Below are positions 2,936 through 34,647 of a stretch of DNA of 34,776 nucleotides, one piece after another (the first letter of the stretch is position 1; every line of letters begins with the position of its first letter). Source of the stretch: a virus; IMG/VR virus record IMGVR_UViG_3300048987_000006, positions 1-34,776 of that record; one strand, 5' to 3'. The notes beneath the pieces are model-generated. The model was not told the DNA's origin. It saw only the letters and a program-made list of their open reading frames with translations, and searched no databases. The position numbers and the translations under genes are program-made.

Positions 2936-4198
2936 ATGTGCGGGATTGTCGGTGTAGTATACGGCCCCGATGGGCCTGGTGTAGAAAAGTGGACACCCAG
3001 CGAGGCGGCTGAGTTGATGTTCCCTAACGTGGTACATCGTGGTCGTCATGCTTGGGGTTGGGTTCACAATCTGGATAATGAGAAGTTCCAGCTACGCAAG
3101 TGGGGCGAAGAAGCAACAGATGAGAACATCAAGAAACTTAGGAATGACCACGAACTGGGGATACCGGACGATTCATTGTTCTGGATAGGCCACGTTCGTC
3201 ATGCAACACATGGCCCTGAGACTGTGATGGTGAACAACCACCCCATCATCCATGGTGACTGGGTTGGAGTGCATAACGGTATTGTCTACAACTACCGTGA
3301 GATTCTCAAGAAAACTGGACGACAACATAAGAAAGCGGAGGTTGACAGCGAGGCTATCTTCGCAGCCATAGATAAGTATGGCCTAGATGATGGGCTGAAA
3401 CAGCTAGATGCTTTAGCTGCATTCGTGACCTTCGACCGCAAAGACCCCGAGACTGTGTACTTCGGTACTACTAACCCAGCGAACCCGCTCATCATAGCCC
3501 AGTCTAAGGGTGGTGCGTGGTACTTCGCAAGCGAGCTACATATCCTTGAGTTCCTGGATATGGAATGGGCTGAGCAACCGTTCATCCTGAAAGACAGCGA
3601 GCTATTCATCCTGAATAAGGGTTTGGAGTATGACTACCGGAAATACGAAGGGTACAAGCACACCTACTACAACAGTAGCTTCAATTCTGGTAGCCTGTAC
3701 AACCGCAAGCTGTGGTGGATGGAAGATGATGATGAGGTTCTGTTTGAGTCTGAGTCGGATGCCGCAGCCGCAGCTAATGAGTACCTAAAGAACCACGCCG
3801 AACTACAATGTTGCCTCTGTGCTTGGGAAGGTGACGACGGTGACCTAGGTTTAGGCGGCGATTGTCCACAATGCCAAGCGCCGTTCGAGTGTCTCATTGA
3901 CATAAGCAGTAACCGCTTGCTACTTGATGAGATAGAAGAAAAGGAAGATAGGCCGGATGGGGTTGAACACCTAGAACATGAGGGGCTAAAGTTCTCTAAG
4001 GTTATAGAGAACGGTAAGGTTTATTTCTTGGCTGACTCCGGCGAGCTGATGGATGAGGCTAGGTTCAAGACATACCTAGAGGTCAGGGCTTTGTTCGAGC
4101 GTAGCCCTGACACCGATGATGAAAGCATACGAATAACAGCGAGTAAAGCCATAGAGGGATATAAAGGGGGTGATGATGAGCTTGTTGTCTCAGACTGA
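2936..4198 (+). CDS. class II glutamine amidotransferase
   Basis: A 420-residue Ntn-hydrolase amidotransferase. The catalytic Cys is Cys2 (MCGIVGVV). Further family motifs are HRGRHAWGW (34-42), GHVRHATHG (85-93), NNHP (100-103) and HNGIVYN (113-119). It hydrolyses glutamine to glutamate and ammonia. The glutaminase part ends near residue 230. There is no asparagine-synthetase or sugar-isomerase domain after it, so it probably supplies ammonia to a partner, and the amidoligase 20 nt upstream is the obvious candidate. The C-terminal half is unusual: an acidic stretch, a four-Cys zinc-ribbon-like region around 291-319 (CCLC and CPQC), then a helical tail of unknown role. AAGGAGGTAG lies upstream of the ATG. 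Confidence 0.8.
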   Translation: MCGIVGVVYGPDGPGVEKWTPSEAAELMFPNVVHRGRHAWGWVHNLDNEKFQLRKWGEEATDENIKKLRNDHELGIPDDSLFWIGHVRHATHGPETVMVNNHPIIHGDWVGVHNGIVYNYREILKKTGRQHKKAEVDSEAIFAAIDKYGLDDGLKQLDALAAFVTFDRKDPETVYFGTTNPANPLIIAQSKGGAWYFASELHILEFLDMEWAEQPFILKDSELFILNKGLEYDYRKYEGYKHTYYNSSFNSGSLYNRKLWWMEDDDEVLFESESDAAAAANEYLKNHAELQCCLCAWEGDDGDLGLGGDCPQCQAPFECLIDISSNRLLLDEIEEKEDRPDGVEHLEHEGLKFSKVIENGKVYFLADSGELMDEARFKTYLEVRALFERSPDTDDESIRITASKAIEGYKGGDDELVVSD

Positions 4199-5374: not shown

Positions 5375-5659
5375 ATGAGAAAATACATGGAAGATGATTA
5401 TGAGATAGCGGCTAAGCCTGAGTCAAGCAGACTCAGGGATGTTGGCCGTGACGAGAGGGGCGTCAGTCGGGACTTGATATTACAAGCCCCGCCTACCTTC
5501 TGGAACTGCCCGAACTGTGGGTCAGACCCAACTAGATGGGAAGAATGTGCTCAACTTCACGCAGGTAGCGGCACCGAACACTACTACTGTGTTAGATGCA
5601 TGAGCTTCATTAGTGCAACCGGATACTCTGGGGGTTGTGAGGATTTAAGCTATGGGTAA
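5375..5659 (+). CDS. DDY-motif zinc-ribbon protein 1
   Basis: A 94-residue protein, first of five in this region that share an N-terminal DDY motif (here MEDDYEIAAK, residues 5-14). A zinc-ribbon-like array follows: CPNCG near 45-49 and CVRC near 72-75, with spare Cys and His between. Ribosome binding site GAAGGATT precedes the ATG. The last 8 nt overlap the next family member. The motif with the AAK extension is almost the same as in the next protein (DDYNMAAK), which suggests duplication or shuffling of 5' ends. Function unknown; a nucleic-acid or protein adaptor role is plausible for zinc ribbons. Confidence 0.7.
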   Translation: MRKYMEDDYEIAAKPESSRLRDVGRDERGVSRDLILQAPPTFWNCPNCGSDPTRWEECAQLHAGSGTEHYYCVRCMSFISATGYSGGCEDLSYG

Positions 5660-6110
5660 AAAGAAAAACAAACCAATGCTTGATGACTACAACATGGCGG
5701 CTAAGACCGACAACCGTAGGCGTGAATGGCTACAGGTTTGGTGTGGCAACTGCGGGCACCGAGGCAACACCCGCCGTGATGAGTACACCTGCCTTGAGTG
5801 CAACTACACCGAGGATACTCTGTATGCCAACGGACGGCATAGGTTCTATAGCTACAATGATTATGTGCCTGACCAAGGCGAGTTGAATACCTGGCATAGG
5901 CTGGGTACCGCACCACCCTGGGAGTTGGTGGAACGGGAGCCAGCGAGAATGGTACAAGACAGCATACTGCTTGATGTTAGTGGCGACCCTGCCCTAATAC
6001 CCGCTTGGTCAAACCTGCCACCCAACAGCTATACAGCAGGGCCGCCCAGTAGTTGGGCACCACCGCCTCAACCCACCGACTTCTCCGACTGGGGAGTAGA
6101 TGATGAGTAA
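5652..6110 (+). CDS. DDY-motif zinc-ribbon protein 2
   Basis: A 152-residue protein with a Lys-rich start (MGKKKNKP), then LDDYNMAAK (10-18) and a clean four-Cys zinc ribbon (CGNCG near 31-35, CLEC near 47-50). A long Pro/Trp-rich tail (PPSSWAPPPQPTDFSDW near 130-147) is probably disordered and could bind partners. It overlaps both neighbours in the family (8 nt each side), so the group is one coupled operon. The zinc ribbon resembles those of transcription factors in spacing, but no specific family is recognised. Confidence 0.7.
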   Translation: MGKKKNKPMLDDYNMAAKTDNRRREWLQVWCGNCGHRGNTRRDEYTCLECNYTEDTLYANGRHRFYSYNDYVPDQGELNTWHRLGTAPPWELVEREPARMVQDSILLDVSGDPALIPAWSNLPPNSYTAGPPSSWAPPPQPTDFSDWGVDDE

Positions 6111-6441
6111 AGTGTTGTTAGATGATTACGAGCTTATGCAGTTCCATGCTACTGTTGTGGCTGAGCTAGCTAGACAACTATGGACTAATCCAACCAGTAA
6201 CCCCAGCCGCACACACGGCTGTCTTATTTGCCATACCCAAACCCTACACCCATATAGGTACAGCATACTTGGTCGGTTCCGTAGCCGAGGTTATGCCTCA
6301 CGTGCTTATGTTTGCTCGGAGTGCCACGCCCACTACAGGTCTGCTGGGTATGGTGGCATTTACTGCTGGACTTCACAGACTAGACGAGCAAGGGCGGGCC
6401 AAGTTCGACCCGACCAGGTTAGGTGGGGTTGGCGTGACTAG
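6103..6441 (+). CDS. DDY-motif zinc-ribbon protein 3
   Basis: A 112-residue protein with LLDDYEL at residues 5-11, then a helical segment (VVAELARQLW) and a Cys pair array CLICH and CSECH, a zinc-ribbon or zinc-finger pattern. The C-terminus is basic (TRRARAGQVRP), compatible with nucleic-acid binding. Two ATGs are adjacent at 6100 and 6103; the second is better spaced from GGGGAG. The gene overlaps its neighbours at both ends. Function unknown. Confidence 0.65.
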   Translation: MSKVLLDDYELMQFHATVVAELARQLWTNPTSNPSRTHGCLICHTQTLHPYRYSILGRFRSRGYASRAYVCSECHAHYRSAGYGGIYCWTSQTRRARAGQVRPDQVRWGWRD

Positions 6442-6928
6442 ATTAATGGATGATGATTACCAGTTGGCACTAAATCACCTAGCTATTCAGCCTGAGCCTA
6501 TGGAGTGGCAGTACGACGACATAGAGTTACCCGACTGTGACCTATGTGAAATGGCAACCGAGCTAGCCTTCTGGCAGTTAGACTCCGAAGGCTATTACCC
6601 TCGGGATGCAAGCGCGGCTTGGTGTGTGGCTTGGTGTGAGTCATGCCATAGGTACACTATTCCAGAAGTGCAAGCTCCGCCTGGGTGGTTCTCTGCGCTA
6701 GATATGAGTACCCATGCAAACCGTAGAACACCGTGCAGTTGTGGTATTCGCAGCCCACAAGAATACAGGCATTGGCTAATTGAAAGAGATGACCCACGCC
6801 CTGCAAGCGAAAGGACTGGATATGTTTCTGATAGGCTTTATAACGGGAGCAGTACTAACCTACATAGCCACGTGGTTGGAGGGACTATATCTAGTTCGCA
6901 CACTCACGGAACAACAGGACGAGGTTAG
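6434..6928 (+). CDS. DDY-motif zinc-binding protein 4
   Basis: A protein of 164 residues from the GTG at 6434, which overlaps the previous stop; an ATG at 6446 starting MDDDYQL is the alternative. The DDY motif is at residues 6-9, followed by three Cys-rich knots (CDLCE, CVAWCESCH and CSCG). The last 36 codons overlap the membrane-peptide gene at 6822 in another frame and have odd composition (Ser/His/Gly/Thr), so that tail may not be conserved. Member of the DDY family; function unknown. Confidence 0.6.
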   Translation: MTRLMDDDYQLALNHLAIQPEPMEWQYDDIELPDCDLCEMATELAFWQLDSEGYYPRDASAAWCVAWCESCHRYTIPEVQAPPGWFSALDMSTHANRRTPCSCGIRSPQEYRHWLIERDDPRPASERTGYVSDRLYNGSSTNLHSHVVGGTISSSHTHGTTGRG

Positions 6929-6965
6929 CTTTGAGCCAGATGACTGGGATGAGCTTTACCCCTAG
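6822..6965 (+). CDS. small single-pass membrane protein
   Basis: A 47-residue protein with one hydrophobic span (residues 2-18, FLIGFITGAVLTYIATW) and an acidic cytoplasmic-like tail (FEPDDWDELYP). The ATG at 6822 lies 6 nt after AAGGA, better than the ATG at 6789. It overlaps the 3' end of the preceding gene by 107 nt in a different frame. The hydrophobic-then-acidic design looks selected rather than accidental. Function unknown; it may act at the host membrane early in infection. Confidence 0.5.
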   Translation: MFLIGFITGAVLTYIATWLEGLYLVRTLTEQQDEVSFEPDDWDELYP

Positions 6966-7181
6966 CTTCCAGTGGTTCAATACCGGCACATTCGCCCTAC
7001 TTTACTAGGAGCTAGCGAGCGTTTGTGCAGCTTGACCTGGGCTTTCGCCGGTCAAGCGGACCGACTGTCCCGAGCAGATTGCATAAGGTATTCAGTCGTA
7101 GCCGTGGGTACGTAACCGGCGTTCTACACACCAGGTACTTACAAATAGAATAGTATACAACAGTCCCTGAATGGAGACATT
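6966..7181 (+). other. gene-free structured region
   Basis: No gene is visible. GCTTGACC (7030-7037) pairs with GGTCAAGC (7050-7057) and encloses GGC, tttc, GCC. GGAC, cgact, GTCC (7058-7070) stacks directly after. No U-tract follows, so this is not a simple terminator. TTCTAC (7111) and TAGAAT (7146) are at poor spacing for a promoter. It may be a structured RNA leader of the gene at 7182. Confidence 0.35.
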
Positions 7182-7508
7182 GTGGTAGAAGAATTTGATG
7201 ACTACAAGTTGGCGCAGACAGCGCCACGCAGAGAACGCAGGCTTAACGAAAGCATAGATGCTGATAATTGGGATAGGCTAGTCCAATCAGCAGCAAATTG
7301 GCAGCGGCATACAAGGACTGGGGACCAACTACGTGCCATGTTTAGGGAGCAAGCCCTATATGGCGTCGGTGCAATACAAGCCCCAGAAGATGTACCACCC
7401 CAGCCGTCTATTCCAGTAGACTATAGAGGCCCTAATGGGGACTACTCATTTTCCTGTGACTGTCCGACCTGTCAACGGATAAGAAACAATAGGCACAGAG
7501 GGGGTTAA
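7182..7508 (+). CDS. DDY-motif protein 5
   Basis: A 108-residue protein starting at GTG, 5 nt after GGAG. EEFDDYKLAQ (3-12) matches the family motif. The middle is helical and charged, and the C-terminus holds a compact Cys cluster (CDCPTCQRIRNNRHRGG), a reduced form of the zinc-binding part in the other members. It is separated from them by a 216-bp structured gap. It is the last plus-strand gene before the convergent polymerase operon. Confidence 0.65.
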   Translation: MVEEFDDYKLAQTAPRRERRLNESIDADNWDRLVQSAANWQRHTRTGDQLRAMFREQALYGVGAIQAPEDVPPQPSIPVDYRGPNGDYSFSCDCPTCQRIRNNRHRGG

Positions 7509-7991: not shown

Positions 7992-10388
7992 CTACGATTC
8001 ATCTTCGTAGTTCTCCGGTAGCTCAATCACGTTAACCCCCTTTTCCGCCCAGGTAGAGCACCAGGACGGCTCAAACGACAGTGGTACGGCTAGTTCATAG
8101 CCAGGGTTCTCACAAGTCTTCCTGAGCCTTCTCAGAAGCTCTGTGTCGGTGTTCCAGACACCCTCTGGGGCCTCGAAGACCAATTCGTCGTGGACCTGGT
8201 TGATTAGAGTCAGGGTGTCGGCGTAAGAGCGGCAATCTAGCATGTTCCTACGCATAATGTCGCCAGCCGAACCCTGAATGATGCTATTTACTGCTTGTCG
8301 CTCCCCCTTACTACGTATTTTCCATGATGCATCTCCAAATGCGTAGCGCAGTCGGCGGTAGCGACCCCCGATGGTGCGGACGTAACCCTGCCCTCGGGCC
8401 ATGTGTATAACTGCATCTTTCCATTGGAAGAAGGTGCTGTATATGCTTGCAAGGTGTTCAAGATAGCCTTGGGCATCGTCAATGGTGGTGGGGAATCCGT
8501 TGAGTGCAAGGATTTGAGCCAGTTTCTTAGCTCCTGCTCCGTAGCCAAGGGCAAGGATGAGTGTTTTACAGAGTTGTCTTTCCGGCTCATGTTTTTCAAC
8601 CTTCCGGCCAAAGATGTATTCGGCTGTGGTGATATAGATATCTTTCCGTGTGCGATATATGTCAAGTAGTACTGCATCGCCAGAAAAGTGAGCCATAAGT
8701 CGAGGCTCCAGTTGAGAATGGTCGCCCACAACAAGATTGCCGCAGAAAAGTGAACGAACAGCCTCACCAATAGCACCGTGAGCAGGCTGGTTTTCCATAT
8801 TAGGGCTGCGACTAGAGAGTCGGCCCGTAACCGTACCAGTTTGGTCGAATCTGCCATACAGCCTCCCTTCGTGGCTATACTGGGGATAGGTTCTGAGATA
8901 TGTGGTGATGACCTTGTTCAATTTGCGCCACGCAACTAAGTCCGTGACCCATTCATTGGTGCCGTGATAGAACAGCAAGTCCGGGGTGCTGGTACTGGGT
9001 GCCTTGGTCTTGGCCGAGGGCGGGGTTTTCTTAAGCCCAAAGCCTTTACGGGTCCAGTACCCATGCACAAGTTCTCTACCGATTTTCTCTACTACAAAGC
9101 TAGGAGGAATAAGATGGACACTGTTGTTGCTTGGATTATCATTGGCGTCTTCTGGCTGGTTATCATCCTTGCTATCTGGGGTGCTACTGGCGGCGGTCCG
9201 TAGAGCTTTGATTTGCTCTTTGTCAAATCTCAGCTTATCCGGCTGAGTCCAGACCTTGGAGAACAACACAGCGCCTAGTTGCTGCCAGCTATTGAGATTG
9301 ATTTCATAGCCCAGGCTTTCATATAATTTTTGCTCCTGGCTTGCTGCATCAACCTCAAAGCGGGCCTGCAGGTGTCTAGCACAACAGGCTAGTTCGGACA
9401 AACCGCCTGTATTTTGTCGTGGACTACCTTCGGGAGAACGCACAAGTTCTCTGGTCTGTTGTCCATCGGATTCCCGTTGACGTGGTGTACCACTTCCTCC
9501 GGTTTCAGGAATCTCCCTAACTTCTTCTCGGCTAACCACCGATGCAGAAGGAGTCGTCCATCGGGTGAGGCTGCGGGATGTGTCGGCAAGAAGATTCTCA
9601 GGCACCGACCACCCTTCGTAACTGACCCTACCTGTGGCGCTGGCCTGCCTTTCGGCCCATAGCAAGCCATGCTGCAATATTTCTGTGGTTGGTGGGATGG
9701 GTGATACTCTTTCCCACATTTGGTACATGTTCTCAATTCCCTTAAACGTCCCATACAGCTTATCCTTTCCACAATCAAGCGAAATACCCATTCCGGCACA
9801 CTCCATATTGAGCAGGACTTCGGTGAAATCCACATGCTCAGAGGCCCAAGAGTTCTCCCAGAGGCGCTCTTTCAGTACCTCTCGGAGTTTAAGATATAAT
9901 GCATTCGTGGCTTCTACATCCCTGCGGTTGTACTCCATGAGTTGCTGGTAGTATTCATGGCCATAGGGCATGGTTTCAAAGTCCCGTAATGGGGTACGCT
10001 TACCGTCATCGGACTTGAAGTAGACCACCTTGGCTTCCCGGTCGATGCGCTTGTCCATGACGATGTTGCAGTACCTATTGGCAAGATATTCCAGGGACAT
10101 TTCAGTGTTCTCATTAATCAGATGAGCCATGACCATAGTGTTATGGTATGGACCCCTAATGCTATAGCCAGCGAGCTTGAACCAGCGAGGGTCGTGGTCA
10201 CCATGAGAAACTATAGCTGCATCAGAGGCTAGAGGCTTCTTGTAAGAGGGTTTATCAAGACCAGGCTCTCTGCGACCGGGGCACACAATAGCAGGGAAAC
10301 CTGCTACTTGATAGCCCACACAGAGCAACTTACCGTTCCACGGCGAATCACCAGTATTCTCTATATCTATGACTATATATGGGTCCAA
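7992..10388 (-). CDS. family A DNA polymerase with internal insert
   Basis: A 798-residue replicative polymerase. The 3'-5' exonuclease domain shows VIDIENTG (Asp8, Glu10), HDPRWF near 55-60 and YNRRDVEA (153-160). Polymerase motif A is GDHSQLEPR (555-563), motif B is RQLCKTLILALGYG (604-617) and motif C is QVHDE (731-735). The position equivalent to E. coli Phe762 is Leu (612). Residues about 206-332 do not fit the family: GISLD (201-205) should run directly into LACCARHL (333-340), so about 127 codons are inserted, carrying an HNH gene in another frame. Without the insert the length would be about 671. The start is TTG, 8 nt after GGAGGG, and it has its own promoter-like motif. Confidence 0.9.
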   Translation of the reverse strand: MDPYIVIDIENTGDSPWNGKLLCVGYQVAGFPAIVCPGRREPGLDKPSYKKPLASDAAIVSHGDHDPRWFKLAGYSIRGPYHNTMVMAHLINENTEMSLEYLANRYCNIVMDKRIDREAKVVYFKSDDGKRTPLRDFETMPYGHEYYQQLMEYNRRDVEATNALYLKLREVLKERLWENSWASEHVDFTEVLLNMECAGMGISLDCGKDKLYGTFKGIENMYQMWERVSPIPPTTEILQHGLLWAERQASATGRVSYEGWSVPENLLADTSRSLTRWTTPSASVVSREEVREIPETGGSGTPRQRESDGQQTRELVRSPEGSPRQNTGGLSELACCARHLQARFEVDAASQEQKLYESLGYEINLNSWQQLGAVLFSKVWTQPDKLRFDKEQIKALRTAASSTPDSKDDNQPEDANDNPSNNSVHLIPPSFVVEKIGRELVHGYWTRKGFGLKKTPPSAKTKAPSTSTPDLLFYHGTNEWVTDLVAWRKLNKVITTYLRTYPQYSHEGRLYGRFDQTGTVTGRLSSRSPNMENQPAHGAIGEAVRSLFCGNLVVGDHSQLEPRLMAHFSGDAVLLDIYRTRKDIYITTAEYIFGRKVEKHEPERQLCKTLILALGYGAGAKKLAQILALNGFPTTIDDAQGYLEHLASIYSTFFQWKDAVIHMARGQGYVRTIGGRYRRLRYAFGDASWKIRSKGERQAVNSIIQGSAGDIMRRNMLDCRSYADTLTLINQVHDELVFEAPEGVWNTDTELLRRLRKTCENPGYELAVPLSFEPSWCSTWAEKGVNVIELPENYEDES
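9389..9754 (-). CDS. HNH homing endonuclease nested in polymerase gene
   Basis: A 121-residue protein read in a different frame inside the polymerase gene. A treble-clef-like knuckle (Cys10, Cys13, Cys27, Cys31) is followed by an HNH_3-type core: LLLHRWLAEKKLG (68-80) and VVHHVNGNPMDNRPENL (88-104). GGAAAGGAT lies before the ATG at 9754, inside the inserted segment. The frame ends in TAG right at the point where normal polymerase sequence resumes. Homing endonucleases cut insert-free alleles to spread their own gene. No room is left for a group I intron core, and the host frame stays open, so it is neither a normal intron nor an intein. Confidence 0.85.
   Translation of the reverse strand: MGRLRELRTCTKCGKEYHPSHQPQKYCSMACYGPKGRPAPQVGSVTKGGRCLRIFLPTHPAASPDGRLLLHRWLAEKKLGRFLKPEEVVHHVNGNPMDNRPENLCVLPKVVHDKIQAVCPN
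9393..9773 (-). mobile_element. 381-bp HNH insertion in polymerase
   Basis: Boundaries are inferred by aligning the polymerase with the E. coli Pol I pattern: codons 206-332 are extra. The insert is close to a multiple of three and contains no stop in the polymerase frame. It lies at the start of the polymerase (thumb) region after the exonuclease domain. The exact edges could shift by a few bases. Confidence 0.65.
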
Positions 10389-10516: not shown

Positions 10517-10834
10517 ATGGAAGAAATGCTCTGGCTGTCCGACGAGATGATGGAACACTCAAGCCCGATGTGGGATTCCCGGCCTCGGTCAGAGGCTGAG
10601 ATAAAAATGGCGTACCGAGTGCAGGCTGTCTTGGCCTCTATGAACCCCAGGCAGGCTGAGCTACTCCGCAAGCACTTCTTTGAGGGCTTGGGAGCCACCG
10701 AGCTAGCCCGTACTGAGGGAGTAGGTGCCAGGACTATGCGCTACAATATAAGCCGAGCCAAAGCCGCCTTTGTGCGAGCGATGGAGAAATGGGGTGGCGA
10801 ATTTGCAACCCCAGCAGGAGGTACCAGTGTCTAA
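10517..10834 (+). CDS. sigma-70 region 4-like regulator
   Basis: A 105-residue protein. Residues 37-90 match the region 4 helix-turn-helix of sigma factors: MNPRQAELLRKHFFEGLG, then ATELARTEGVGARTMRYN and ISRAKAAFVRAME. It lacks region 2, so it cannot be a full sigma factor. It could redirect host RNA polymerase at -35 elements or act as an activator. It starts the plus-strand replication operon, directly behind copy A of the repeated control motif and divergent from the polymerase, so it may read those motifs. The acidic N-terminus (EEMLWLSDEMMEHSSP) is unexplained. Confidence 0.75.
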   Translation: MEEMLWLSDEMMEHSSPMWDSRPRSEAEIKMAYRVQAVLASMNPRQAELLRKHFFEGLGATELARTEGVGARTMRYNISRAKAAFVRAMEKWGGEFATPAGGTSV

Positions 10835-11400: not shown

Positions 11401-11494
11401 TGAAGTGCTAGCCAAGGGCTATGAGGCAGAGCATCTGTTCATGTGCCCGAAGTACCTCAAAGGTGGTAACATCAAAGACTATAAGGGGAACTAG
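11060..11494 (+). CDS. zinc-finger protein
   Basis: A 144-residue protein from the ATG in the TAATG overlap with the previous stop, the junction style seen throughout this genome. The first 30 residues are a disordered Thr/Gln/Ser/Lys-rich segment. The C-terminus has a certain zinc-finger pattern: CPSCN (109-113), then HLFMCPKY (125-132). An internal ATG at 11381 behind AAGGA could give only the 37-residue finger, which would be right if the overlapping HNH-like frame is the real gene. It is followed by primase through TAGTG. Confidence 0.55.
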   Translation: MDKQPAKSGTTTKEQTTESGPQESKPQTGQKGAGLADEALTALLDEQGSIRIAFTDTPRGMSLEWCSVRPVMSLSRFLQAVATERSATKVLGDALSTLSGYTDKDQPMRCPSCNEVLAKGYEAEHLFMCPKYLKGGNIKDYKGN

Positions 11495-12519
11495 TGCCTA
11501 AGCCAACAATATTTCACCTACAATACCTTATAGGTAACCCCAACGCTTATGCTATACAGCATCCCGATGGGTCATATTACCCAGTAGAGGAACCACCCAC
11601 CCCCAAGATTCTGGGTATGCACCATCGAGGCAAAGTAACTATTGGGACTTATTTAGTGTATGGCGACAAGGCCCGGACCCTAGTACTAGACTTTGACTCA
11701 GGGGATGCAGCTAAGCAGGAAGCTCTGCTTGCGGCAGAGGCTTTGCGAAAGCTGGGAGTCCCGGAACGTAGTATAGGTATAGAGTTTTCTGGCAACAAAG
11801 GCTACCATGTATGGGTAGTAATAGGTCAACTAGTACAAGCCGAGGCCATTCGTAGATTGGGCTACGCCGCCCTGAGCCTGGCCGAGGTCGAGGCTGAGGT
11901 CTACCCTAAACAGAATGCAACTACCAACCTGGGTAATCTTATTAAGCTACCTGGCGGAATCCACAGAGTTACTGGTAAGCCTAATGATTTCATAAGCAGG
12001 ATTCCTACGCCCATGGCAGCCGAAGTTTTTGAGAATCTTATGCAGGACATACCAGAGCTAAAGACTAGGACGAAAGGCAACTACGATGGGCCGGTCGCAA
12101 TCGAATGTCTCGGCAGGATACAGGACGGCGTTGGCGCAGGTGCTAGGAATACCGCCCTCTTTCATCTTGCAACTATGTTACGACGAGCAGGTCTTAACGA
12201 CGCCAATACAGAGTCGGTCATACGGACTGTGGCAGATAAATGCGACCCCCCGTACACCGACGAACCGGAACTCTCCAACCTCATAGAATCCAGCAAGAAT
12301 AGCGGTCCTATTTGTGCCCAACTGCCCTCCGAACTCCAATGTGAACTCTGTCCAGTCCGGCAAGCCAAGGGACTGAGTTTAAGAACCGGGCAGGTAAAAC
12401 ATGGCAGTCCTGGGGAGCTTGTAGTGGTGGAGATAGGCAGGTCAGAGCGTGGATTGACCGAAATCAAGCACCCAGATATTGGAAAAGGGTTAGTGAATAC
12501 CCTGAAAAACATACCCTAG
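11494..12519 (+). CDS. archaeo-eukaryotic-type (AEP) DNA primase
   Basis: A 341-residue primase. LVLDFDSGD (63-71) holds the metal-binding DxD; SGNKGYHVW (99-107) is the Ser-Gly/His motif; EVYPKQ and GNLIKLPGGIHRVTG (near 146-160) close the catalytic core. This is the AEP/PrimPol layout rather than the DnaG type. Residues about 215-270 (GARNTALFHLATMLRRAG onward) resemble a primase C-terminal PriCT helical domain, followed by CELCP, a partial zinc site. The GTG start overlaps the previous stop (TAGTG). It makes primers for the family A polymerase with the helicase at 14308. Its last codons contain copy B of the control motif. Confidence 0.8.
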   Translation: MPKPTIFHLQYLIGNPNAYAIQHPDGSYYPVEEPPTPKILGMHHRGKVTIGTYLVYGDKARTLVLDFDSGDAAKQEALLAAEALRKLGVPERSIGIEFSGNKGYHVWVVIGQLVQAEAIRRLGYAALSLAEVEAEVYPKQNATTNLGNLIKLPGGIHRVTGKPNDFISRIPTPMAAEVFENLMQDIPELKTRTKGNYDGPVAIECLGRIQDGVGAGARNTALFHLATMLRRAGLNDANTESVIRTVADKCDPPYTDEPELSNLIESSKNSGPICAQLPSELQCELCPVRQAKGLSLRTGQVKHGSPGELVVVEIGRSERGLTEIKHPDIGKGLVNTLKNIP

Positions 12520-15698: not shown

Positions 15699-16068
15699 GC
15701 CGCTTTGTTACATCGCTGGGCCGTACACTCACCCTGACCCAGTGGAGAACACGCATGACGCGTCCCAGCTAACCATCCGAATGATTGACGATGGGTATGT
15801 GACACCCATATGCCCCCATGCTACGCTTATCCTGCAGCTTGTCTCGCCACACTCTGATGTAGATTACTGGTATGCTTATGACAATGAGGTTTTAGCTCAT
15901 TGTGATGCCGTGTTTCGGATGCCTGGTGAAAGCAAAGGCGCTAACGATGAATGTAGGTTTGCTGGCAGGTTAGGTAAGCCTGTGTTCTACAGCCTAGAGG
16001 CTCTCTATGAGTGGGCCGACCAGCACACTACATGGCAAGGATTGCGTGATTATGCCCGACAACTTTAA
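15682..16068 (+). CDS. nucleoside 2-deoxyribosyltransferase-like protein
   Basis: A 128-residue protein. CYIAGPYTHPDPVENTH (9-25) is the nucleotide-binding start of the nucleoside 2-deoxyribosyltransferase/DUF4406 fold; HCDAVFRMPG (near 74-83), ESKGANDE and GKPVFYS follow in the expected order. Members cleave or exchange the base on deoxynucleosides or deoxynucleotides, so a role in adjusting nucleotide pools is likely. The start overlaps the previous gene by 17 nt. A second AGPYT string appears in the next gene's tail. Confidence 0.75.
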   Translation: MATYIKPLCYIAGPYTHPDPVENTHDASQLTIRMIDDGYVTPICPHATLILQLVSPHSDVDYWYAYDNEVLAHCDAVFRMPGESKGANDECRFAGRLGKPVFYSLEALYEWADQHTTWQGLRDYARQL

Positions 16069-16546
16069 CATGGAACAGGGCGGGGTACGCTACGACCAGG
16101 ACAAGCCCCGTTACGAGCTTATCCCGCCGTGGCCCCTGGAACAGTTAGCCCGTGTCTATACGATGGGCGCAGCCAAGTACAACGACTACAACTGGATGAA
16201 GGGTATGCGGTGGGGCAGGCACTTCGCTGCTATGATGCGCCACTGTTGGGCATTCTGGCGGGGAGAGACATACGACCCAGAGAGTGGACTACATCACCTG
16301 GCTCATGCTGCCTTCGCCTGCTTCGCTCTTATGCAGTACACTCTGGACCACCCAGAACTAGACGATAGGCCAAAGGATAATGGGACACAAGATAAAGATG
16401 TACACCAAGAGGCAGGTCAAGGCACACCGCAAGCTAAAGAGACAAGCCCAATTAGAGGCGTTAGCGAGCCGGTCTTCTTGGCTGGCCCCTACACCCCACC
16501 CAGCGGACGAAATGTTGCAGGGGGTGGACACCTATGGCCCATGTAA
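16052..16546 (+). CDS. dATP/dGTP diphosphohydrolase-type protein
   Basis: A 164-residue protein. Residues 8-92 match the phage dATP/dGTP diphosphohydrolase N-terminal family: GVRYDQDKPRYELIPPWP, MGAAKYNDYNWMKGMRWG and GLHHLAHAAFACFALM. The fold is all-helical, MazG-like, and the reaction would be dNTP to dNMP plus pyrophosphate, pairing with the preceding enzyme. Related enzymes serve in phages that replace adenine, but no PurZ-like gene is in the window. The tail after residue 100 is disordered and then shows PVFLAGPYTPPSG, similar to the start of a deoxyribosyltransferase. Confidence 0.75.
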   Translation: MPDNFNMEQGGVRYDQDKPRYELIPPWPLEQLARVYTMGAAKYNDYNWMKGMRWGRHFAAMMRHCWAFWRGETYDPESGLHHLAHAAFACFALMQYTLDHPELDDRPKDNGTQDKDVHQEAGQGTPQAKETSPIRGVSEPVFLAGPYTPPSGRNVAGGGHLWPM

Positions 16547-31987: not shown

Positions 31988-33883
31988 CTATATCTCTGTG
32001 CCTGTGCTGCTAGACCCTGGTGTAATCGTTATACTTGCCGATGCCGAGTCTGTATTTGGTGTTGATTGTGCCTGAGAGTTTGTGTCTGTGACGGTGTTAG
32101 CTGCACCTGTGCTTGCATCTCTACGACCACCAACAGGAACATATGTGGTTGTAACCGTAATCCCAAGCATCTTTGCAATCATTCCGCTTGCAGTACCACC
32201 TTCTGTATTGCCCGATGTGTCAAGTATCTGTCCATGTGCGTGAACCCCACCAGAAACAAATCCGTGGTCGTGTCCACCTGCACTTGCAAAGCTATGCATG
32301 TGAGAATCATTGTCTGTTGTGTAGCTTCCAGCGCCGTGAGTATGGGCTGTACCCGTAGAAGCGCCGCCAGAGGTACCACTTACGCCGTGGCTGTGGTCGT
32401 GACTAGTAAAGCTGTGACTGTGACCAAATTCCTGTCCAAAACTGTGTCCATGACCAGGATGTTGGACGAACTTATGAACATGGTCAGCATCGTGTTTGTG
32501 TTCTGTGTCGTGCCAATGCCCGTGGTGGTGCCCGTGGGGATGCACATGCCCACCATCAGAACCGCTAAAAGAAGGTAAACCATGTACATGGGTTGCACCG
32601 CTACCGGCAGTCTGGGTGTTGGTTCCCGACCACGCAGATGAGTGATTATGCTTAGCGTCTGCCTTAACCCTGGCCGCACAAGAATCCCCAGGCTCTATGC
32701 CATGGAACATCATCTCATAAGACCACGGGGGGCTGGTGTCTTTGTCTATGTGGAAGGTGTGGTGGCGATGGTCGCCATTCACCGCCAAGTCTATAACAAT
32801 ACCTTCTATGTCGTCGTCATTGTAGGTCGGGTTGTATGTCCCGTTAACCTTGGCCTTCATCTTTGCCTTACCCTGCTGGGTAATAAACATAGAAGGCGTA
32901 CTAGGCGTAGGCGGGTCAGAGCGAGTTACTGCCCCTGAACCTATCCAGGCGCTTATGTTCCCCGATGCATCTACGTTGCGAACCCAGCCGTAGTAACTCC
33001 CTGCGCCAGGCTTGAATGCAGGCCAGTTCTTGTGGTGAGCATGAACGTAACGGTCGAAATAGGTGACCCCATTAACCACCATCGGAGACGCAGACGAGCT
33101 ACTGCTGGTGGTTATCTTAGTTTGTGCATAAGCTATGTCGGGGTGGATAAGGTTGCTGTCGTCGGGGTCGTTAGGTTGGTCCCAGTTCTGGTGGAAATGG
33201 TGCTGGCGAACTATTAACCGGCTGGCTGTTGGGTCCGGCGGCGGGTTGGTGTCGCTGGGAGTACCGGGAGCAGTCCAGTAGTGGCCGCTTATAAGGTCTG
33301 TGCCCGACCACGGACCTTTGTGTCCATGCTTGGTAATCGCTCGTACAGATGCCCGGTAGAAGGAACGAAACCGGATATGAACAAAGACGTGCTTGGCGAT
33401 AGTATCTGCATCATCATCATGGGCATGAACAAAGCACCTACGGGCGGGCATGAACGTGCCCCACTTAGACGAGTCCGAAGTATTTGCAGCGGTGTAAATC
33501 TTGAAATCGTTTGTAGCTGGGTCCCAGGGGCGTAGCTTGAATTCGTAGGTCTTTATCTGATATATGTCATCTTCGTTCTGCTCGTCACACCTGACAATAG
33601 CGTGCCAGTGAGTTGCGTGGTGGCGATGCCCAGAACCCTTATCGAAGTCGAGAGTAACCCCAGTGAGAAAGAGCGGGTCATTCTCGTCGTCTTCGTGCTC
33701 TTGCGCTGGGGGCTTCTTGCGCCGCTTGACCTTTTTCAACAAACTGAATAGTCTATTGTGGTGCCCAGCTAGAACATCGAAGTTACGTTGAACCGCTTTA
33801 CGGAATTCTTCCTCCCGCATAACAGTAGTTATGTGGTAAGGAAGCTCTAGTTCCTCTGGTCCCAGCTTCTCAAACTCATCCAT
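31988..33883 (-). CDS. His-rich tail fibre with HxH metal-binding tip
   Basis: A 631-residue receptor-binding-type protein. The ATG at 33883 (TAATG with the adaptor) is preferred over a GTG 14 codons upstream. Residues 1-60 are an attachment-like region. A beta-sandwich with FN3-like features follows near 300-440 (GSYYGWVRNVDASGNISAW, then WSYEMMFHGIEPGD). From about 440 to 570 the sequence is crowded with HxH units (GHVHPHGHHHGHWHD, HKHDADHVHK, GHGHSF, GHSHSF, HDHSHG, GGHDHG, VHAHG). In T4-type fibres such motifs bind iron along a trimeric needle. The Ser/Thr-rich end may be the distal tip. Confidence 0.7.
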   Translation of the reverse strand: MDEFEKLGPEELELPYHITTVMREEEFRKAVQRNFDVLAGHHNRLFSLLKKVKRRKKPPAQEHEDDENDPLFLTGVTLDFDKGSGHRHHATHWHAIVRCDEQNEDDIYQIKTYEFKLRPWDPATNDFKIYTAANTSDSSKWGTFMPARRCFVHAHDDDADTIAKHVFVHIRFRSFYRASVRAITKHGHKGPWSGTDLISGHYWTAPGTPSDTNPPPDPTASRLIVRQHHFHQNWDQPNDPDDSNLIHPDIAYAQTKITTSSSSSASPMVVNGVTYFDRYVHAHHKNWPAFKPGAGSYYGWVRNVDASGNISAWIGSGAVTRSDPPTPSTPSMFITQQGKAKMKAKVNGTYNPTYNDDDIEGIVIDLAVNGDHRHHTFHIDKDTSPPWSYEMMFHGIEPGDSCAARVKADAKHNHSSAWSGTNTQTAGSGATHVHGLPSFSGSDGGHVHPHGHHHGHWHDTEHKHDADHVHKFVQHPGHGHSFGQEFGHSHSFTSHDHSHGVSGTSGGASTGTAHTHGAGSYTTDNDSHMHSFASAGGHDHGFVSGGVHAHGQILDTSGNTEGGTASGMIAKMLGITVTTTYVPVGGRRDASTGAANTVTDTNSQAQSTPNTDSASASITITPGSSSTGTEI

Positions 33884-34647
33884 TATTGTGGCGGTATGGT
33901 GGTAGGTATGTGCGCCCGAACCCACTCATCGGTGGTCATAGGCCACTGAGGCTCTGGGTCCTGCTTACCCCACACTATGGACTCATCATCCGCCAGGCCC
34001 CTGAACTCTCTTAGGGCGTCGGCAACCACTTTGTTGTAGGTGGAGAGTTGCTCGCCCGCCTTGGGTCCGCTAACGGTCGCATCCACTTCATGTTTCCATA
34101 GCTCGTACGTGGCCCAAGCGATAACCGCTTCTTGGTATTGGGGTGGGACTTCGGGTTCGGTGGTGCTTGTAAGTGCGGCTGGTTCCCGGTAGTAGTGGTA
34201 CTCTGCGGTGTATGCCACATCGGGAGTTGGAACAAGCGTAATGATTTGTGCAACATCTGGACCATCTCCATCTATGTAAGTATTGTTGACTGTCTTGGCT
34301 GAATACCAGAACCGTGGTTCTGCATTCGTATTGAACACTGTCCGCATCCGCACACCGTCGCTGGGGGTTACCTTGGATGGGATTATGACCCTGCTGTCTG
34401 AGTTACGCACAAGTACAACAGCAAGATGACGAGTAAGGTCCACATCATCAATAGCCTCAATGTCGGGGTTACCCGCCACGACAGGGATATTTTTCTGAAC
34501 TGTGAATAGCCAGGGCCACCGGGCTTCGTGGCAGAACCGGCGCACGCCCTCATCGAGCATACGCTTAACCTGGTCGTCGGACCAATAATCTGCGGTTGTC
34601 TCTGCCAGCCTAGAACGTACCTCGGCTATAAGTTCAGTCTGTGTCAT
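33883..34647 (-). CDS. head-tail adaptor protein
   Basis: A 254-residue protein. The opening TELIAEVRSRLAETTADYW, then SDDQVKRMLDEGVRRFCHE and ARWPWLFT, is typical of tail adaptor proteins (T7 gp11/P22 gp4-like class) of short-tailed phages, which join the portal to the nozzle. The middle holds a beta domain (DLTRHLAVVLVRNSDSR), and a helical end has YQEAVIAWATYELWKHE. Ribosome binding site AAGGATATAG precedes the ATG. Its place between a truncated upstream structural gene and the fibre/nozzle genes fits. Confidence 0.7.
   Translation of the reverse strand: MTQTELIAEVRSRLAETTADYWSDDQVKRMLDEGVRRFCHEARWPWLFTVQKNIPVVAGNPDIEAIDDVDLTRHLAVVLVRNSDSRVIIPSKVTPSDGVRMRTVFNTNAEPRFWYSAKTVNNTYIDGDGPDVAQIITLVPTPDVAYTAEYHYYREPAALTSTTEPEVPPQYQEAVIAWATYELWKHEVDATVSGPKAGEQLSTYNKVVADALREFRGLADDESIVWGKQDPEPQWPMTTDEWVRAHIPTTIPPQ

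Follow-up and report, generated by a model that had tools for sequence, protein, structure and literature searches.

Five neighboring genes on the plus strand of the window, by which we mean the whole 34,776-base IMG/VR virus record analyzed here, encode small Cys-rich proteins that share a short N-terminal peptide, hereafter the DDY tag. Gene 1 (5375–5659) encodes a 94-aa protein beginning with MRKYMEDDYEIAAK and containing the Cys pairs CPNC and CVRC, gene 2 (5652–6110) a 152-aa protein beginning with MGKKKNKPMLDDYNMAAK and containing CGNC and CLEC, and gene 3 (6103–6441) a 112-aa protein beginning with MSKVLLDDYELMQ and containing CLIC and CSEC. Gene 4 (6434–6928; 164 aa; GTG start) contains CDLC, CESC, and CSC, and gene 5 (7182–7508; 108 aa; GTG start) begins with MVEEFDDYKLAQ and contains a lone CDCPTC near its C-terminus. 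The tags of genes 1 to 5 occupy positions 5387–5413, 5676–5702, 6115–6141, 6446–6472, and 7191–7217, respectively. Because successive genes from 1 to 4 overlap by 8 nt (5652–5659, 6103–6110, and 6434–6441), their starts are well supported as those of one translationally coupled unit. Positions 6100 and 6103 are both possible starts of gene 3; for gene 4 the most likely start is the GTG at 6434, which gives a protein beginning with MTRLMDDDYQLAL. A small protein with a hydrophobic stretch (6822–6965; plus strand), likely a membrane protein, overlaps the end of gene 4 and found no match in the family search.

The window probably represents part of a phage genome, with early and replication genes on a rightward arm and virion genes on a leftward arm. 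The matches of the leftward arm to head proteins and to internal virion proteins were weak, and genes for a head protease, a scaffold, or a major capsid protein were not recognized in the 34.8 kb fragment. Relatives of the two large virion proteins tried were not found in 50,697 phage records, an IMG/VR search with a 1780-aa protein gave no match, and a 645-aa protein of the virion arm with long His-rich stretches (31988–33925; minus strand) had no PHROGs family. The polymerase of the window showed a match of approximately 34% over part of its length in the 50,697 phage records. An HNH_3 endonuclease ORF (9389–9835; minus strand; E 9e-12) lies in another frame within the family A DNA polymerase ORF (7992–10388); it may be a homing gene that is overlapping or carried by an intron, and Rfam detected no intron. 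The window also contains a small protein with a match to sigma-70 region 4 (10517–10834; plus strand; E 4e-8), a possible phage transcription factor judging from this match, and an AEP-TOTE type primase (11494–12519; plus strand; E 6e-16).

The earlier note on this DNA had described DDY near the N-terminus of five adjoining genes, and all five were present. DDYx[ILM] fell at residues 6–13 of the proteins starting at 5375, 5652, 6103, 6434, and 7182; from the supported starts, DDY occupied residues 7–9 in genes 1, 3, and 4, residues 11–13 in gene 2, and residues 6–8 in gene 5. In each protein a short leader precedes DDY-x-[I/M/L]-[A/M], and the consensus of the tag, with variants, is M-x-[KR]-x-[ML]-x-D-D-Y-x-[ILM]-A. 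Translation of the 34.8 kb window in all six frames contained DDY eight times, with a credible gene start only for these five. The product of the composition-based probabilities put the occurrence of all five tags by chance at 1.6e-13. Compared with random phage proteins, the tag was commoner here: DDY lay within the first 15 residues in 6 of 2,831 control phage ORFs (0.2%) with a Shine-Dalgarno-like start, and the tag profile scored at least 12 bits in none of 4,211 control ORF N-termini, compared with 23.6–26.0 bits for the five tags (14.1–19.0 bits when each was left out in turn). The five-gene observation is thus confirmed.

A scan of the window with the tag profile returned the five tags, followed by a sixth copy (MLDDHNIAD; 17.3 bits) and a next-best score of 11.5 bits. 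Control frames reaching at least 15 bits were absent both from 366,000 control residues, a set from which sites chosen by means of the tag pattern had been removed, and from 49 window-equivalents of other phage DNA. The sixth copy (2643–2669; plus strand) is the best match to the gene 2 tag in the window, with 22 of 27 nt identical, and carries His in place of Tyr. It lies at residues 307–315 of a 396-aa Amidoligase_2 protein (1725–2915; plus strand), extends the set beyond the earlier note, and is new here. The match of this protein to Pfam PF12224 covers residues 4–200 (E 3e-19; 70 bits against a cut-off of 22). The catalytic part spans approximately residues 1–275, and an extra tail (residues 276–396) contains the tag and, shortly after it, 18 Cys residues between positions 328 and 390. 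The closest amidoligases found, from IMG/VR contigs L095 and L096, are 40–44% identical in the alignment and end at approximately residue 275 in a three-way alignment, those of Arthrobacter phages end somewhat before this position, and a comparable Cys-rich tail was found in none of 75 other phage amidoligases. The tag and a Cys-rich body thus form a module, found on its own in five genes and attached to an enzyme in one; the peptide copy and the Cys-rich tail place the amidoligase itself in the tagged set.

The sixth copy is internal and carries His for Tyr, so that either the tag does not require its N-terminus to be exposed or this copy has decayed. In-frame ATG codons at 2643 and 2634, with a poor upstream signal, might conceivably allow the tail to be made on its own, as a sixth free tagged protein of 90–93 aa. 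Structural prediction of the tail gave no usable model (pLDDT approximately 30 or below). The adjoining gene encodes a class II glutamine amidotransferase (2936–4198; plus strand) with a Cys-pair insert of its own (CCLC and CPQC), preceded by MEDDDEVLF at 3719. This peptide was rejected as a second enzyme-borne tag, its 9.2 bits being a non-significant score at which several chance cases are expected per window. A dATP/dGTP pyrophosphohydrolase-like gene (16046–16546; plus strand) begins with the weakly tag-like MIMPDNFNMEQ, possibly a decayed seventh copy; it scored 10.7 bits, a value reached or exceeded by 0.05% of control N-termini.

We next consider the level at which the tag is conserved. 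The motif is conserved in the DNA, and its longer form occurred at only six sites in the window, all of them tag copies, as would be expected if a DNA- or RNA-level element close to the gene starts, such as a translation signal or an operator, were translated incidentally. Against this explanation, every tag copy is in frame and the changes are mainly synonymous or property-keeping: bases 1 and 2 of the D-D-Y codons are invariant and base 3 varies, and the second residue after Tyr is Ile, Met, or Leu through different codons. The distance from the start codon, moreover, varies between 15 and 30 nt, and one copy lies deep within a gene. A translation or operator signal is very improbable on these grounds, and these features showed the tag to be a protein-level element.

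The tag ends abruptly. Mean DNA identity among the five genes fell from 62% across the 24-nt tag to 26.5% across the 60 nt that follow, against a random-pair background of 25%, which bore out the description of a constant N-terminal peptide on variable bodies. Body similarity was insignificant in 9 of the 10 gene pairs, and the tagged bodies appear to be essentially unrelated or diverged beyond alignment. The exception, genes 1 and 3, gave P 0.012, or 0.049 with the Cys residues kept in place, which is borderline with ten pairs tested and leaves room for old paralogy of at least two members. The earlier statement that all five proteins carry CxxC clusters was correct, with a single one (CDCPTC) in gene 5. 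Their zinc-ribbon-like label held for the CxxC spacing and failed for a match to a curated family: no Pfam zinc-ribbon model was reached by the tagged proteins, all matches being below cut-off. The best Pfam match for the set was C1_2 (E 0.0027; under cut-off) and the best PHROGs match was weak (E 0.0099); gene 1 reached no curated family. Zinc binding is suggested by the CxxC spacing. A poor structure model of gene 1 built with its paralogues (pLDDT 57) contained a helix at residues 8–12, in weak agreement with a helical tag.

These data bear on the main rival explanation, in which a single small Cys-rich protein was duplicated in tandem long ago to give all five genes, and their N-termini simply mark the best-conserved stretch of one fold and have no docking role of their own. 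The genes lie side by side, four of them translationally coupled, all five have Cys pairs, genes 1, 3, and 4 have in common a 34-nt segment that includes the start codon, and the borderline similarity of genes 1 and 3 points the same way. Descent from one protein accords poorly with the sharp stop of both DNA and protein similarity past the tag, with the absence of the two-pair layout from gene 5, and with the copy that precedes the quite different 18-Cys tail of the amidoligase. We consider duplication with a conserved fold part rather unlikely.

The earlier note had also named the amidoligase–amidotransferase pair as a candidate modifying system for the tagged proteins. As a leader or recognition peptide, the tag would direct their modification by this pair, and the internal copy in the amidoligase would act as a pseudo-substrate or as a site of self-docking. 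In favor of this, the amidoligase is itself tagged, and the two enzyme genes share the strand of the first tagged gene and precede it by 1.2–3.7 kb. However, none of approximately 120 other phage amidoligase loci (1.7 Mb) had a tagged cluster near Amidoligase_2 or any other shared N-terminal peptide, including those of the closest relatives beside the same amidotransferase, so the proposed co-occurrence of tag hits with Amidoligase_2 did not appear. The tag DNA motif was likewise absent from the whole contigs of L095 and L096, the two nearest relatives. Since Amidoligase_2 genes of other phages come without tagged clusters, the tag does not mark amidoligase substrates in general. What survives of the proposed link is the amidoligase with its own peptide copy and Cys-rich tail; a general modifying system is not borne out, and we regard the modification leader as improbable. 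L095 (290–3335) and L096 (10001–13513), two high-GC phages, contain the same pair as adjoining genes; a third gene, beginning MRLHLAFRN or MRYHLHFKN, looks common to both, and in L096 it is followed by a protein resembling gamma-glutamyl cyclotransferase.

We also searched for the tag elsewhere. Neither blastn of the region nor tblastn of the genes detected homologues of the five genes in 50,697 phage records, and gene 2, for which no relatives were found, gave no match in IMG/VR. A blind, DDY-free test for at least three short ORFs sharing any N-terminal 8-mer in front of dissimilar bodies recovered the five genes of the window and no second case in approximately 130 other phage loci, and the design itself is accordingly rare. 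A scan of 2.9 million IMG/VR contigs for M-x-DDY-x-[hydrophobic]-A, with both codons of the first Asp and covering the M-x-DDY-x-x-A geometry, yielded 83 and 68 stretches, nearly all within unrelated genes or tiny frames, and no tagged-gene cluster among them. In L231, another, unrelated phage, a lone protein of approximately 86 aa (2312–2569; plus strand; MLDDYQIACGAPTCEFYGDTFELVL) has an N-terminal DDY and two Cys residues; it begins with MLDDYQIACGAPTC, provided that an internal ATG is the start. Among 84,980 bacterial and archaeal genomes, the tag pattern together with a Shine-Dalgarno site gave 41 matches, many apparently in a YggS-like C-terminal part, which we take to be that of the PLP-binding YggS family, and others in single genes. 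The YggS-like occurrences suggest that DDYxIA is also simply a good helix start. A literature search yielded no description of a DDY motif in phages, and the known occurrence of the tagged gene set is one contig.

A constant tag on variable bodies supports the idea, raised in the earlier note, that the proteins share a partner, which would be the most economical reading. We propose that the DDY peptide serves as a short linear motif through which the proteins dock on, or are targeted to, one common partner, an explanation that we regard as evenly poised. The N-terminal segment would form a short amphipathic helix that binds this partner, of phage or host origin, and would thereby bring the amidoligase and a variety of Cys-rich bodies, which probably bind Zn, into a single complex. 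The set may have arisen as a 5′ gene segment was copied several times, the copies being placed in front of different bodies and, in one case, attached to the amidoligase gene at its 3′ end. The fused copy suggests that the amidoligase is brought to where the small proteins go and does not merely modify them. More tentatively, and with considerable doubt, the tag may be a home-made modular address by which the Cys-rich bodies and the amidoligase gather early in infection at a single hub of phage or host origin; such a tag system would be previously undescribed and unrelated to the T4 capsid-targeting sequence. If the tag is a docking motif, one synthetic 15-residue bait would recover the common partner of six phage proteins together, and a phage amidoligase would be linked to a set of candidate partners.

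Comparison with known systems showed partial likenesses. The tagged proteins resemble phage zinc-ribbon-like hypothetical proteins in their CxxC pairs and ribbon-like spacing, and are unlike them in reaching no Pfam cut-off and in the weakness of their PHROGs matches. The actinobacterial form of the ssrA degradation tag ends in DYALAA; the likeness (DYxLAA) is superficial, and the ssrA tag works at the C-terminus, whereas the DDY tag is N-terminal in five proteins and internal in one. The Amidoligase_2 and class II amidotransferase cassettes of Arthrobacter phages Kovu, Ottawa, and Waltz and of L095 and L096 have the same two adjoining genes. In these cassettes, however, the amidoligase consists of the catalytic part only, with neither a Cys-rich tail nor DDY, and, unlike the window, they have no DDY-tagged cluster nearby.

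The cleavage consensus of the T4-type prohead protease is L/I-x-E, and none of the five tags is directly followed by such a site in the sequence. The set differs in this respect from the T-even internal proteins, and also in its different peptide, its Cys-rich bodies, its one copy internal to an enzyme, and the location of its genes, which are not beside virion genes. A tag that packs small proteins into the phage head for injection with the DNA, as in T4, would share the design of those proteins (PMC3012670; PMC9391042). Such a capsid-targeting role has little likelihood: the genes lie in the replication and early arm, the cleavage site is absent after the tag, and a tagged amidoligase inside the head would be odd. 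Because the site is missing and the genes are away from virion genes, we did not class the DDY set as T4-type capsid-targeted. The T-even internal protein set is nevertheless the nearest known design: IPI, IPII, and IPIII are diverse and have only a short N-terminal capsid-targeting sequence in common (PMC3012670), which is carried by T-even internal proteins (PMC9391042), and the likeness lies in small, diverse proteins behind one short N-terminal peptide. If the DDY tag is a docking motif, it would join the T4 capsid-targeting sequence as a second example of unrelated phage effectors evolving behind a fixed address peptide.
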